A DNA stretch of 64,000 nt from Natrinema saccharevitans (lineage in GTDB: Archaea; Halobacteriota; Halobacteria; Halobacteriales; Natrialbaceae): the NCBI RefSeq assembly GCF_001953745.1, contig NZ_LWLN01000001.1, positions 2,604,001 to 2,668,000 on the forward strand, read 5' to 3'. Positions within the stretch are counted from its first letter, which is position 1. Each line of letters begins with the position of its first letter. Positions 45,089-49,409 of this stretch are shown here, piece after piece. Below the pieces are notes generated by a model. The model did not search any database. It was given only the letters and a program-made list of their open reading frames with translations, and was not told the origin of the DNA. The translations under genes and the position numbers were made by a program.

Positions 45089-45970
45089 TTAGAGCAGTCC
45101 CGTCTTCTGGAGTTTCATCAGGTCCTCGGTGTCGAGGGTCTCGCCTTCCTTGAACTTCTGGTAGATCTCTTCGGCCTCTTCCTTGGCCTCCTCTTTCTTC
45201 TTGTCGCGCTCGGACTTGCGCTCTTCTTCCTCTTTCTTGTCCAGTTCGCGCAGGCGCTTCTGGACGCGGACGAAGTCCTCGTGGTGGCGGTCGGCGGCCT
45301 CCTGGGCCTCGACGAACTTCTCGTGCATCTCGTCGGCCTCGTCACGGATGTCGTCGGCCTCCCGATAGGCCTCGATCATCTGGTTGTGATGTTCCTGGGC
45401 CTTGTCGGCGAGTTCCGTGACCTTCTGGTGGTGCTGGGAGGCTTCCGATCGTACTTCCTCGGCCTCCTCGACGAGTTCTTCTAAGTCCTCGTTCTGATCG
45501 AGTTTCTGCTTGCGCTCCTCGTACTCCTCGCGCTTGCTCTCGATCTTCTCGATCAGTTCCTGCTCTTCCTCGCTTGAGAGGACCTCGGTCTGCTGTTTGA
45601 ACTCGAGGTCTTCGATCTCCTCCTCGAGTTCCTCGAGGTCCTTGCCCTCGTCGAGCTCCATGTCCGATTTGAGCTGTTCGACCTTGTCGAACAGTTCGTT
45701 GGCCTCGGCGTTGAGCTCGTTACGGCTCTCCTTGTGTTCCTGGACCTGTTCGTTGAGCTCGTCGCGTTTCTCGCGGTGTTCCTGGGCCTCGTCGACTTTC
45801 TCGCGAGTCTTCGCGTTGAGCTCGTCGCGTTTGGAAGCCCGGTCAGAAGCCATCTGGTTCAGCTCGTTGCGCCGGTCTCGCAGTTGACCGGCCATCTTGA
45901 TGAGCTGTCCTTTCGATTTGTTTTCTAGGTCGTCCTCTGTCAGTTCGATGTTCTTCGATTCGTCTACCAT
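45089..45970 (-). CDS. Coiled-coil protein (archaeal COG1340-like)
   Basis: 293 aa, almost entirely charged helical sequence with heptad-like spacing. Segments: LKSKGQL-like start, then about 30-100 (LRDRRNELNQMASDRASKRDELN, EQVQEHKESRNELNAEANELFDKVEQLK), about 110-180 and 190-265 (KVTELADKAQEHHNQMIEAYREADDIRDEADEMH in parts). It ends DTEDLMKLQKTGLL. This long coiled coil is conserved in archaea with no known role; it may be structural or tie to chromosome or membrane. The ATG at 45970 (MVDESKNIEL) is used. Confidence 0.85.
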   Translation of the reverse strand: MVDESKNIELTEDDLENKSKGQLIKMAGQLRDRRNELNQMASDRASKRDELNAKTREKVDEAQEHREKRDELNEQVQEHKESRNELNAEANELFDKVEQLKSDMELDEGKDLEELEEEIEDLEFKQQTEVLSSEEEQELIEKIESKREEYEERKQKLDQNEDLEELVEEAEEVRSEASQHHQKVTELADKAQEHHNQMIEAYREADDIRDEADEMHEKFVEAQEAADRHHEDFVRVQKRLRELDKKEEEERKSERDKKKEEAKEEAEEIYQKFKEGETLDTEDLMKLQKTGLL

Positions 45971-46283
45971 GTTAGTCAAACCTCTGTGCCATACCCGCAC
46001 CGGGAAGCCGACCGGCCGGCCGTCCGAGCCGATCGCCGGCGATTCGGCGATCGGTTCGGCAGTAGCCGGCGGGCCGTTCGAAGCGACTGCTCACGATCTG
46101 CGAAACCTCGGTGAATAAGATTTCCTGTCATCGATCGTCGAGCGATACGCGCCCCGGTGGCGTTCTGGTGACTGGTACTACTGTCGCCTCTAATTTAAAG
46201 CTACCGGTACCCCAACCCCTGAAAACGGTTCGCAGGGCCCTCTTCTCGCCCCGTTAGCCCGTGGCATGGAGAGACGAACGTAT
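45971..46283. other. Intergenic region upstream of the coiled-coil gene
   Basis: 313 bases. A 9-base-stem hairpin, CCGATCGCC/GGCGATCGG, is near 46029-46055; an AT-rich TAATTTAAAG near 46193-46202 and the palindrome TATTTATAAATA near 46273-46284 are the only other marks. No credible gene. The promoter of the coiled-coil gene must be here. Confidence 0.5.
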
Positions 46284-48206
46284 TTATAAATAGTACCGGT
46301 TACGGACCGTCCGATCGTCGACGGCGACCTCGAGGACGACCCGTTCGGCGTCGGCGGGAATCCGAGCAGTCCCGGCGCTGGTCGTCTCGAGTGGGCCGAC
46401 ATCCACCGTCGTCACGGCCGTCTCGTCGCCGGCCCGCCAGCCGACGGTGGTCTCGAGGGCCTCGTTGCGGTCGTTACAGAGCGTGATCCCGACGGTCCCG
46501 GGCGTCGGCGGCCCGTCGAGGGCGGCCTGGACCGGCTCGTAGGACTGCGCGATCGCTTCGGCGGCCCGCTTTGGCTCCCCGTCGGCGGCGTACACGCCCA
46601 TGCCGCCGCCCGGTGCGGGGTCGCGAAGCGTCGACGCCGCGAGGACGCCACAGTCTCGCCGGCGAAGCGTCTCGGCGACCGTCTTCAGGATCCGTGCCTG
46701 CTCGCGCTGTGAGCCCTCGACGTCGGCCCCGTCGGCGAGCAGCGCCGGCTCGAGCCCGGGCACCGTCGCCGGGTCGGCGTCGTCGGCCGCGAGCGATCCA
46801 GCGCCGAACCGACCGACGACCTCACCGAGCGACGGGTACGTCTCGAGCAGCCAGTCGGTGTCGGCGGCCGCGAGGTATCGCCAGCCCGGGAAGAGATGCG
46901 CCGCGTCGGCGTCGGTTCCCGGCGGCCCCGCCACCGGCACGATCGGCAGGTCGTCGGGGAGACGCTCGGCGACTGCGTCCGCAGGTTCTCGATCGACCGA
47001 CGTCCGCCACGCTCGGTACCTGACGGCGAATCTCGCGAGCAGCCCCTTGCCCACCGGCTCCGCGTACGGGTCGGTCGGCCGGTCCTGGACGCCGTACATC
47101 GCGAGGCTGGGATAGCGGCCGTACGTCTCGGCCAGCGCCGTCGTCAGTTCGATCCCCCGGTCGATCGGGAGGTCGGAGCCGCACGCGGGCAGGTCCTGCC
47201 AGACCAGCAGCCCCGCCTCGTCGCAGGCCTCGTAGAACGACCGCGGCGGGACGTGCCCGCGTGCGCGAAGGAGCGTCGCGTTCGCGTCGACGGCCCGGTC
47301 GACGTCCGCGCGGGGATCGCCGCCGGGGAGCCGCGTGAACCCGCGGGCCCGAACCCGCCGGCCGTTGACCAGCAGGCCGTCGCCGTCGCGCTCGACGTGG
47401 CGGAGACCGACCGTCCGCTCGAGGGTGTCGCCCTCGAGTTTCGCCCGCACGGTGTAGCGGTCCTGCGGGCCGTACTCGCGGGGCCACCACAGCGACGGCT
47501 CCCGAACCGAAAGCGTCCGCGAGACGGTGGTCCGCTCGCCGGCCTCGGCCTGTACGGGGACCCGTTCCATGGCCGCGCCACCGCGAAAGCCCTCGGGCCG
47601 CAGCGATAGCGTCACCGCGTCGTCGACGGCCGCGCCCGCATCGACCTCGAGGGTCACGTCGATCGCGGCACCCGCGCCGTCCGCGGTCGCGTTCGCGGCC
47701 GACGGAGCGTCCCCGTCCGTTTCGCCATCGGATTCCGATGCCGGCCCCAGCCGCGGCCGCACGTCGAACTCCCGCAGAAAGGTCCGGGGGCGAGACTCGA
47801 CGGCGACGCCGCGCCGGATCCCGGGCACCGCGAGCCGGTCGGGGACCTCGTCGGTGCCGCGGATCCCCGCGAACGCGTCCGGGCGCTCGCAGACGACGAG
47901 GAGTTCGTTCTCCGGGCGGGGCTCGAACTCGAAGCGGGCCGGGACGAACCCGACGTCGCTCGCGCCCAGCCGCGACCCGTTCAGCCAGACCTCGGCCGGA
48001 CCGTCCGTGCCGCCGATCTCGAGGACGGCCCGTTCGGCGGCGTCGACGCGCGGGTCCGCGAACGTCGTTCGGTAAGCGATCGGCCCGTCGGCGTCGACGA
48101 ACGCGGCGGGATAGCGGGGGACCGGCACCGGTCGCCAGTCCTCGACGGTCGGGAGATCGCCACCGCCGGCATCCGTGACGACCCCGGCAGTCCACTCGTC
48201 GGTCAT
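46284..48206 (-). CDS. Glycoside hydrolase family 2-like protein lacking the usual catalytic residues
   Basis: 640 aa with the GH2 layout: a jelly-roll sugar-binding domain (about 20-180, with AEVWLNGSRLG), an immunoglobulin-like domain (about 180-290, with SLWWPREYGPQ), and a barrel starting GLRHVERDGDGLLVNGRRVRARGFTRL near 290. In active beta-mannosidases, Asn-Glu at the acid/base position and Ser-Glu-Phe-Gly at the nucleophile are expected. Here the corresponding segments read AMYGVQDRP (about 372) and VVGRFGAGS (about 465), with neither Glu. It may bind sugar without cutting it. A linker near residue 160 is coded by a perfect hairpin. Confidence 0.78.
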   Translation of the reverse strand: MTDEWTAGVVTDAGGGDLPTVEDWRPVPVPRYPAAFVDADGPIAYRTTFADPRVDAAERAVLEIGGTDGPAEVWLNGSRLGASDVGFVPARFEFEPRPENELLVVCERPDAFAGIRGTDEVPDRLAVPGIRRGVAVESRPRTFLREFDVRPRLGPASESDGETDGDAPSAANATADGAGAAIDVTLEVDAGAAVDDAVTLSLRPEGFRGGAAMERVPVQAEAGERTTVSRTLSVREPSLWWPREYGPQDRYTVRAKLEGDTLERTVGLRHVERDGDGLLVNGRRVRARGFTRLPGGDPRADVDRAVDANATLLRARGHVPPRSFYEACDEAGLLVWQDLPACGSDLPIDRGIELTTALAETYGRYPSLAMYGVQDRPTDPYAEPVGKGLLARFAVRYRAWRTSVDREPADAVAERLPDDLPIVPVAGPPGTDADAAHLFPGWRYLAAADTDWLLETYPSLGEVVGRFGAGSLAADDADPATVPGLEPALLADGADVEGSQREQARILKTVAETLRRRDCGVLAASTLRDPAPGGGMGVYAADGEPKRAAEAIAQSYEPVQAALDGPPTPGTVGITLCNDRNEALETTVGWRAGDETAVTTVDVGPLETTSAGTARIPADAERVVLEVAVDDRTVRNRYYL

Positions 48207-48326
48207 TACCCCCGACAGCGAACCCGAAGTAAAAAGCAGTTCCGACGGTTCAGACGGTTCGCTGTCGGTCGGTCCCGGCCCGACCCACCCTCCGGGATCG
48301 CGCCGGAACCCGTACAGGGAGCCGTC

Positions 48327-49409
48327 TCAAAAGAGGTTCTCGAGTCGGTCGTCGGCGAACTCCTCGGCGTGGTCGGTCGACTCCGCCTCCTGGGCCTCCG
48401 TGGCCTCGCGGGCACGTTCCATGAACGCCTGCACTCGGTCGGACCGCTCCGCGCCGCCGAGCAGTACCAGCGCGCCCAGTCGCTCGCTGTCCAGCGGGAA
48501 GTCACCGCCCCGGACCTGCATGCTGCCGGTCTCGTCCTCGAGCCAGCGCCGGGCGCGCTCGACGCCCTTGCGCGGGATGGCGTCGGGCCGGCCGGCGATG
48601 ACCAGCAGCGCGGAGTCGGCCGTGGTGGCGTCGGGCAGACTCGTCCCCGTCAACAGCGCCTGCCGCGAGACGGTCATCGCGGTGTTTACGTTCTCGGCGC
48701 TGTCGTCGCTGGCCGCCTCGGTCGCGTAGCCGAGCGCCGCGACCCCGCCCGCGCGGAGAGTGTTGATGACCTCGCTCGAGTCGACGACGCTTTCGCCGAC
48801 GCCCTCGACGGCCTCCCCCGAAGCGAACAGCAGGCCGACCCGCTTGGCGATCCGGTCGTTGATCGTCTCGAAGGCTCCCTCGACGCTCTCGCCCTGTTCG
48901 TGCCAGGCGTCGTTGTCGATCAGCAGCGTCGAGTCGGCCTCCCGCAGCAGCGTCTTCAGCGAGCGGCCGGCGTTTGCCTGATAGAGCGCCCCCTCGTTGC
49001 GGCCGGGCAACACGCCCAGCGCGTAGACCGGCACGTCGTAGACCTGCTGGAGGTTGTGGACTAACACCGGCGCGCCGCCGCTGCCGGTCCCGCCGCCCAG
49101 TCCGGCGACGACGACGATCGCCTCGGCACTCGAGGTCACGCGGCCGTCGAGCGCGCCGAGTACTTGCTGGACGTCGGCCTGCATCACGTCCGTGCCGAGT
49201 TCGTTGTCGCCGCCGACGCCGTGGCCGTTGACGCGGTCGGCACCGATCAGCTTCGTATCGACGAACTGGAGGGACTGGAGGTCGGGTTTCGCGGAGTTGA
49301 CGGCCAGGGCACCCTGGACGGCTCCGAAGTCCATGTTCGCGTCGAACTTCGCGAGCCGCTCGGTGATCCTTCCACCGGCCTGACCGACCCCGATCAGGGC
49401 TACTTTCAT
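48327..49409 (-). CDS. CetZ tubulin-like GTPase
   Basis: 360 aa. The start MKVALIGVGQAGGRITERLAKFD holds the nucleotide-binding loop; VKGH-like RVNGHGVGGDNELG near 60, the tubulin signature GLGGGTGSGGAPV near 105, ALGVLPGRNEG near 130 and a helix-7 region INDRIAKRVGLLFASGE near 190 fit the haloarchaeal CetZ family. CetZ proteins control cell shape and motility rather than division. The sequence is not a close match to the Haloferax CetZ1 start, so it may be the CetZ2-like group. The ATG at 49409 is supported by a TATA-like box upstream. Confidence 0.88.
   Translation of the reverse strand: MKVALIGVGQAGGRITERLAKFDANMDFGAVQGALAVNSAKPDLQSLQFVDTKLIGADRVNGHGVGGDNELGTDVMQADVQQVLGALDGRVTSSAEAIVVVAGLGGGTGSGGAPVLVHNLQQVYDVPVYALGVLPGRNEGALYQANAGRSLKTLLREADSTLLIDNDAWHEQGESVEGAFETINDRIAKRVGLLFASGEAVEGVGESVVDSSEVINTLRAGGVAALGYATEAASDDSAENVNTAMTVSRQALLTGTSLPDATTADSALLVIAGRPDAIPRKGVERARRWLEDETGSMQVRGGDFPLDSERLGALVLLGGAERSDRVQAFMERAREATEAQEAESTDHAEEFADDRLENLF

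Follow-up and report, generated by a model that had tools for sequence, protein, structure and literature searches.

The window analysed here is a 64,000-nt stretch of the Natrinema saccharevitans genome (GCF_001953745.1, contig NZ_LWLN01000001.1, positions 2,604,001–2,668,000). The gene under study, which we call GH2L, lies at 46284..48206 on the minus strand and encodes, from ATG to stop, a protein of 640 aa that is assigned as a GH2-fold pseudoenzyme from Pfam, profile, AlphaFold2 and fold searches. Its frame is intact, with exactly the strand and coordinates given by a first-pass annotation of the sequence, and the genome holds a single copy. Upstream lies a CetZ tubulin-like gene (48327..49409, minus strand; 360 aa from the start MKVALIGVG; Pfam CetZ_C, 7.2e-63), and downstream a gene for a DUF7121 coiled-coil protein (45089..45970, minus strand; PF23435, 1.5e-145). 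A TATA-like CTTTTTA (48230..48236, minus strand) stands about 28 nt before the GH2L ATG and is found at the same place in the window and in the relatives L002–L006, L008 and L010, 16 upstream regions having been examined; to judge from this element, GH2L probably has its own leaderless promoter.

Genes and a structured RNA around GH2L

In 83 of 85 loci, and again in 19 of 20 further ones, GH2L is followed downstream by DUF7121 on the same strand. The two genes thus adjoin in 102 of 105 loci, the exceptions being L104, where the contig ends, and L090 and L148, which belong to one genus. DUF7121 is present in 292/292 genomes of the class and was also matched in the Haloferax, Sulfolobus and Methanosarcina controls. 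A literature search found no paper naming it, and its matches in the PDB are weak only (best, 0.0018). A functional tie between GH2L and DUF7121 is plausible from their linkage. A tight operon of the two was rejected, as the gap between them measures about 200–450 nt and has within it both a structured RNA and a separate, promoter-like element (TTTAAATTA); given this wide gap with its own elements, the adjacency may merely reflect an old, stable locus. CetZ was also considered as a functional partner and set aside, being a neighbour in only 17 of the 85 loci.

The structured RNA element occupies 45983-46199 (minus strand); the TATA-like sequence lies at about 46190-46199, and a GAGG stands shortly ahead of the DUF7121 ATG. 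The block in the gap looks more conserved than GH2L and occurs also in congeners that have no GH2L. An iterated profile recovered the element from 123/123 DUF7121 upstream regions and from 0/123 shuffled ones; the window's genome carries one copy, which folds with a z-score of −3.76. Across 35 diverse copies, 9 of the 15 pairs in two helices change on both sides. Such double-sided changes fill 40 cells, where shuffling gives 14.7 and none of 500 shuffles reaches that count; the helices were placed manually on an alignment broader than the first, and their pair list was chosen after inspection of the sequences. Selection of rows for this count drew on the 81 of 106 cut elements short enough to enter, and 35 of the 41 selected rows were aligned, six that were badly cut or long-armed being left out. 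On the first RNA alignment, RNAalifold had detected almost no covariation. Some copies bear an extra variable arm. No credible Rfam match was obtained for three copies up to an E-value of 1, and scans for terminators and sigma-70 promoters are uninformative for an archaeal host. Since it occurs once in the genome and ends at the GAGG shortly before the DUF7121 ATG, the element looks like a structured mRNA leader of DUF7121.

Fold and catalytic positions of the GH2L protein

Pfam matches the window protein to PF00703, the GH2 Ig-like domain (1.1e-6, above the cut-off), and to PF22666, a sugar-binding domain (5.9e-5, below the cut-off). It lists no match to the GH2 TIM-barrel model, so support for the barrel comes from a profile of orthologs and an AlphaFold2 model. 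The profile, made from 72 relatives and compared with solved structures, matches the beta-mannosidase 5N6U over nearly its full length (2.4e-101) and 6BYE at 1.5e-99. The AlphaFold2 model (pLDDT 93.0, pTM 0.93) has 6BYC as its top Foldseek match (8.1e-37), and VIA-align places it on CapGH2b (Z 32.7, 555 residues, rmsd 3.6) and on the Bacteroides thetaiotaomicron beta-mannosidase (Z 28.8, 573 residues, rmsd 3.5). By fold and sequence (jelly-roll, Ig-like domain and (beta/alpha)8 barrel) the window protein is a member of GH2, and the sandwich, Ig, TIM-barrel and C-terminal layout of beta-mannosidase-type GH2 is kept. Pfam, the 5N6U match, AlphaFold2, Foldseek and VIA-align thus all bear out the first-pass claim that the GH2 fold is retained. 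An acidic, Ala-rich insert at residues 160–173 is modelled with low confidence and is missing from most orthologs. No signal peptide is apparent from the sequence and the net charge is −37; the protein is best read as cytosolic.

Both catalytic glutamates of GH2 are absent. Alignment columns place Arg376 (codon 47079..47081, minus strand) at the position of the acid/base Glu, Asp375 (47082..47084, minus strand) at that of the Asn preceding it, and Arg466 (46809..46811, minus strand) at that of the nucleophile Glu. The V-Q-D-R-P of the window protein shares columns with the C-H-N-E-P of the bacterial GH2 relatives L038 and L041, and its G-R-F-G with their S-E-[YF]-G (alignment A1). In HMMER alignments, the N-N-[C/E] and S-E-[FY]-G of 5N6U and 6BYE fall on these same columns. 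The residue of 5N6U at the acid/base position is a Cys, presumably an engineered mutant; PDB titles of the 6BY series name E477 as acid-base and E575 as nucleophile, and we infer that the aligned motifs contain these two residues. The bacterial sequences L038–L054 served as references only, 8 of the 17 in alignment A1 and 6 in the tree. The alignment was the sole basis for judging the shape of the pocket and the carboxylates near it. The first-pass annotation had proposed that both glutamates were missing and had named the two positions, which these alignments confirm to within one residue. It had also stated that the proposal would be refuted if other acidic residues occupied the catalytic positions; both are Arg, and D375 falls on the Asn position.

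Of the features that mark an active GH2, the window protein has the conserved Arg on barrel strand 2 (R314), and it has Asp375-Arg376 in place of Asn-Glu on loop 4 and Arg466 in place of the Glu nucleophile on strand/loop 7. Its loop/strand 2 reads L-R-A-R-G-H, as against V-R-V-W or similar in the mannosidase-type references, so that neither the loop-2 Trp nor the catalytic Glu pair of GH2_13 beta-mannosidases is present. The GH2 beta-mannosidases (5N6U, 6BYC/6BYE and 2JE8; GH2_13 in the available text of PMC12243196) match the protein nearly full length in profile and fold, and share with it the strand-2 Arg and a WQD motif. The window protein differs from them in lacking the nucleophile, the acid/base and the loop-2 Trp, in having Asp for Asn, and in its length of 640 aa against 811–861 in the solved chains.

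R466 is also present in the congeneric relatives L002, L003 and L004, and since the same fold is kept within the genus, chance or error is an unlikely source of the substitution. A frameshift or misassembly behind the missing residues was rejected, the frame being intact and the feature common to congeners. A shift of the acid/base function to D375 was likewise rejected, this residue being aligned with the Asn, and not the Glu, of bacterial and solved relatives.

Residue series in the haloarchaeal family

In the class, 123 of 292 genomes have a match at an E-value of 1e-3, part of these being other GH2 proteins; at 1e-60 or better the figure is 102 of 292, about a third of the class by hand count of the listing. 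Within the window's genus, a strong match was counted by hand in 7 of 16 genomes and none in the other 9. In a phylum-wide sample, an ortholog was matched at 1e-8 in 24 of 392 genomes, 23 of them strongly, and all 24 lie in the window's order or nearer. The family is haloarchaea-specific and vertically inherited, and a literature search found no description of it.

For residue counts we aligned 104 orthologs, comprising the window protein, 99 from the class set and 4 from named contigs. Left out were L001 (the window itself), L031–L033 (taken as repeats of L003–L005), L127–L132 (repeats), L098 (a split frame) and L104, of which only the C-terminus matched the window protein, a closer query later matching over the full length. 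L098 is an ortholog split over two frames and a possible pseudogene.

The canonical Asn-Glu together with the nucleophile Glu is found in 0/104 orthologs. Glu at both 376 and 466 occurs in three (L081, L084 and L095), but with Asp before the acid/base; 33 combine Asp376 with Glu466 and two have Asp at both positions. Glu376 without an acidic 466 is found in 33, Asp376 without one in 16, the nucleophile Glu alone in one, and no acidic residue at either position in 16. Overall, Glu466 is kept in 37/104 and an acidic 376 in 87/104, the two together in 36/104, counts to be read with the alignment register near 466 uncertain in some rows and a gap there in 7/104. R314 and R515 are invariant (104/104), and D338 and D529 are found in 98/104 and 95/104, respectively.

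In orthologs of the H-D-[DE]-P / E-F-G kind (L064, L016, L084 and others), Asp-Asp or Asp-Glu replaces Asn-Glu and is all but fixed across roughly one third of the family. Similar pairs are described among exo-beta-D-glucosaminidases: in CsxA (GH2_16; 2VZS) the acid/base is an Asp, and in GlmA (GH35) the C2 amine of glucosamine is bound by an Asp that precedes the acid/base Glu (both in the available text of PMC6566704). Among the haloarchaeal relatives that bear the nucleophile, the D-D and D-E pairs are similar to those of CsxA and GlmA (PMC6566704 and PMC12243196, as far as their accessible text goes), and 2VZS is in the match list of the ortholog profile (7.6e-43). Residues that could supply an Asp acid/base and a carboxylate for a C2 amine are present in the EFG-type rows (D375, D/E376 and E466). 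The relatives with HDDP and Glu may still be active enzymes, and those with D375, D/E376 and E466 are predicted by this analogy to prefer 2-amino sugars. The analogy is limited to the relatives; the window protein, unlike CsxA and GlmA, has Arg at both the acid/base and the nucleophile position.

To describe constraint, variability was ranked over 276 barrel positions in 84 rows, made up of a 31-row clade that contains the window protein and 53 others. Both catalytic sites are among the more variable barrel positions of the 31-row clade (percentile 88 for 376, percentile 77 for 466), in which several buried residues are fixed. R314, R515 and Y444 do not vary there at all, and W442 and D529 hardly do. 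In the other 53 rows, variability is low at positions 374–377 (H-D-D/E-P), which rank between percentiles 8 and 21, and 466 is found at percentile 60. Among 33 rows chosen for an acidic 466, in which conservation of 466 itself is circular, H316, H318, D338, H374–P377, W442, G468, R528 and D529 are nearly fixed. The close relatives L002–L006 have R, G or W at 466 and R or W at 376, and parsimony on a quick tree requires at least 10 changes at 466 and at least 5 at 376. Because the catalytic sites are variable in the clade, the pattern suggests relaxed constraint more than a newly conserved catalytic set. For part of the family, these alignments suggest a modified active site under constraint; in the window's part that constraint looks released.

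Selection on GH2L and the likely role of its product

The reading that we favour, with a probability of roughly 0.7, is that the window protein is a maintained, non-cutting GH2 pseudoenzyme that keeps its fold for a binding or scaffold role. Retaining GH2 enzymes require both catalytic carboxylates. With both glutamates missing, the window protein is no ordinary retaining glycosidase. Inactivity does not follow from a missing acid/base alone, since the accessible text of a GH2-wide survey includes an active GH2_21 beta-glucuronidase with Trp at this position and Lys, Arg or Asn in its relatives (PMC12243196). In the same text, members of GH2_21 and GH2_19 with an altered NE pair have the acid/base replaced (Trp, Lys, Arg, Asn; TV, NA, NQ) and keep the nucleophile Glu, which is described there as invariant across subfamilies (PMC12243196); the window protein has lost the nucleophile too. 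As the nucleophile is described as invariant and the acid/base as replaceable, loss of the nucleophile is the decisive point. With neither residue, the classical two-step retaining hydrolysis could not run, and we infer that the protein is catalytically dead.

Estimates of dN/dS (Nei-Gojobori) range from 0.148 to 0.313 for GH2L over 12 pairs, from 0.009 to 0.170 for DUF7121 over the same pairs, and from 0.061 to 0.161 for CetZ over the 7 pairs that have it. The GH2L values are about 2–33 times those of DUF7121 and remain well below 1 overall and in four domains (10 pairs), as expected of a gene that is maintained but fast evolving. The fold is thus kept, the catalytic residues are lost and the gene is under purifying selection, a combination that characterizes a pseudoenzyme.

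The higher dN/dS of GH2L relative to both neighbours could also mean that it is a relic under relaxed selection, that is, a former intracellular glycosidase with no present function and heading for loss. Its patchy presence within the genus and the split frame of L098 would agree with this. At 20 loci lacking GH2L, picked from the listing and not at random, CetZ is still upstream of DUF7121 in 13, and no GH2L remnant was detected in any of the 20 by tblastn with 84 orthologs at 1e-3. Presence and absence of GH2L change 14 times on the DUF7121 tree, at least 6 of these changes being forced by well supported branches. We nevertheless consider a relic possible but rather unlikely, in view of the purifying selection seen overall and in all four domains, the 104 intact reading frames with their two invariant Arg, and the TATA box retained in close relatives.

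A distinctly unlikely alternative is that the pocket has been repurposed as a cationic site sensing an anionic ligand, such as a sugar phosphate or nucleotide sugar, and that the protein is a regulator. Summed over 13 loop positions, which were chosen by alignment and not by structure, the charge is +3 in the window protein and averages +0.42 in the 31-row clade and −2.1 in the other 73 rows. However, Arg is conserved at neither 376 nor 466, and the trait is confined to one clade, so it may represent one evolutionary event. A new mechanism was among the options raised in the first-pass annotation. An active enzyme with a non-classical mechanism, in which D338, D375 or D529 replaces the lost Glu, is very improbable: the conserved D338 and D529 have counterparts in intact GH2s (the WQD Asp and an Asp of beta-mannosidases, respectively) and so are not replacements, and both catalytic sites vary freely among close relatives and throughout the 31-row clade.

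For the maintained pseudoenzyme, the following course may be proposed. The ancestral haloarchaeal protein was probably an enzyme whose site was already altered (His-Asp-Asp/Glu-Pro with Glu-Phe-Gly), and the window's lineage would have lost the catalytic residues and retained the scaffold. The most likely use of the protein would be non-catalytic binding or scaffolding, via the former pocket or the surface; a role as sugar sensor or lectin, raised in the first-pass annotation, is a possibility. Klotho, a GH1 pseudo-glycosidase, and certain glycosidase pseudoenzymes of beetles come from animals and belong to families other than GH2. Like the window protein, both keep a glycosidase fold and have lost catalytic residues (for the beetle proteins, the available text of PMC6549527). 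A more elaborate scenario is speculative and, taken whole, improbable: in a haloarchaeal GH2 subfamily Asn-Glu would first have become a glucosaminidase-like Asp-Asp/Glu, a change absent from the NE variants in the accessible text of the survey (PMC12243196); the nucleophile would then have been lost and the pocket become cationic, yielding a cytosolic ligand-binding partner of DUF7121, whose mRNA would start with an undescribed structured RNA.

The family forms a natural series, with almost every member at the same locus, that runs from an acidic pair (33/104 D/E and 3 E/E) through single losses to none (16/104), the window protein most likely standing at its far end. The loss of glycosidase catalysis with retention of the fold can be studied directly in this series. 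It also urges caution, as the catabolic potential of haloarchaea may be overstated where it is read from GH2 annotations. The ligand of GH2L, if identified, could give a first clue to DUF7121, a protein universal in the haloarchaeal genomes compared here.
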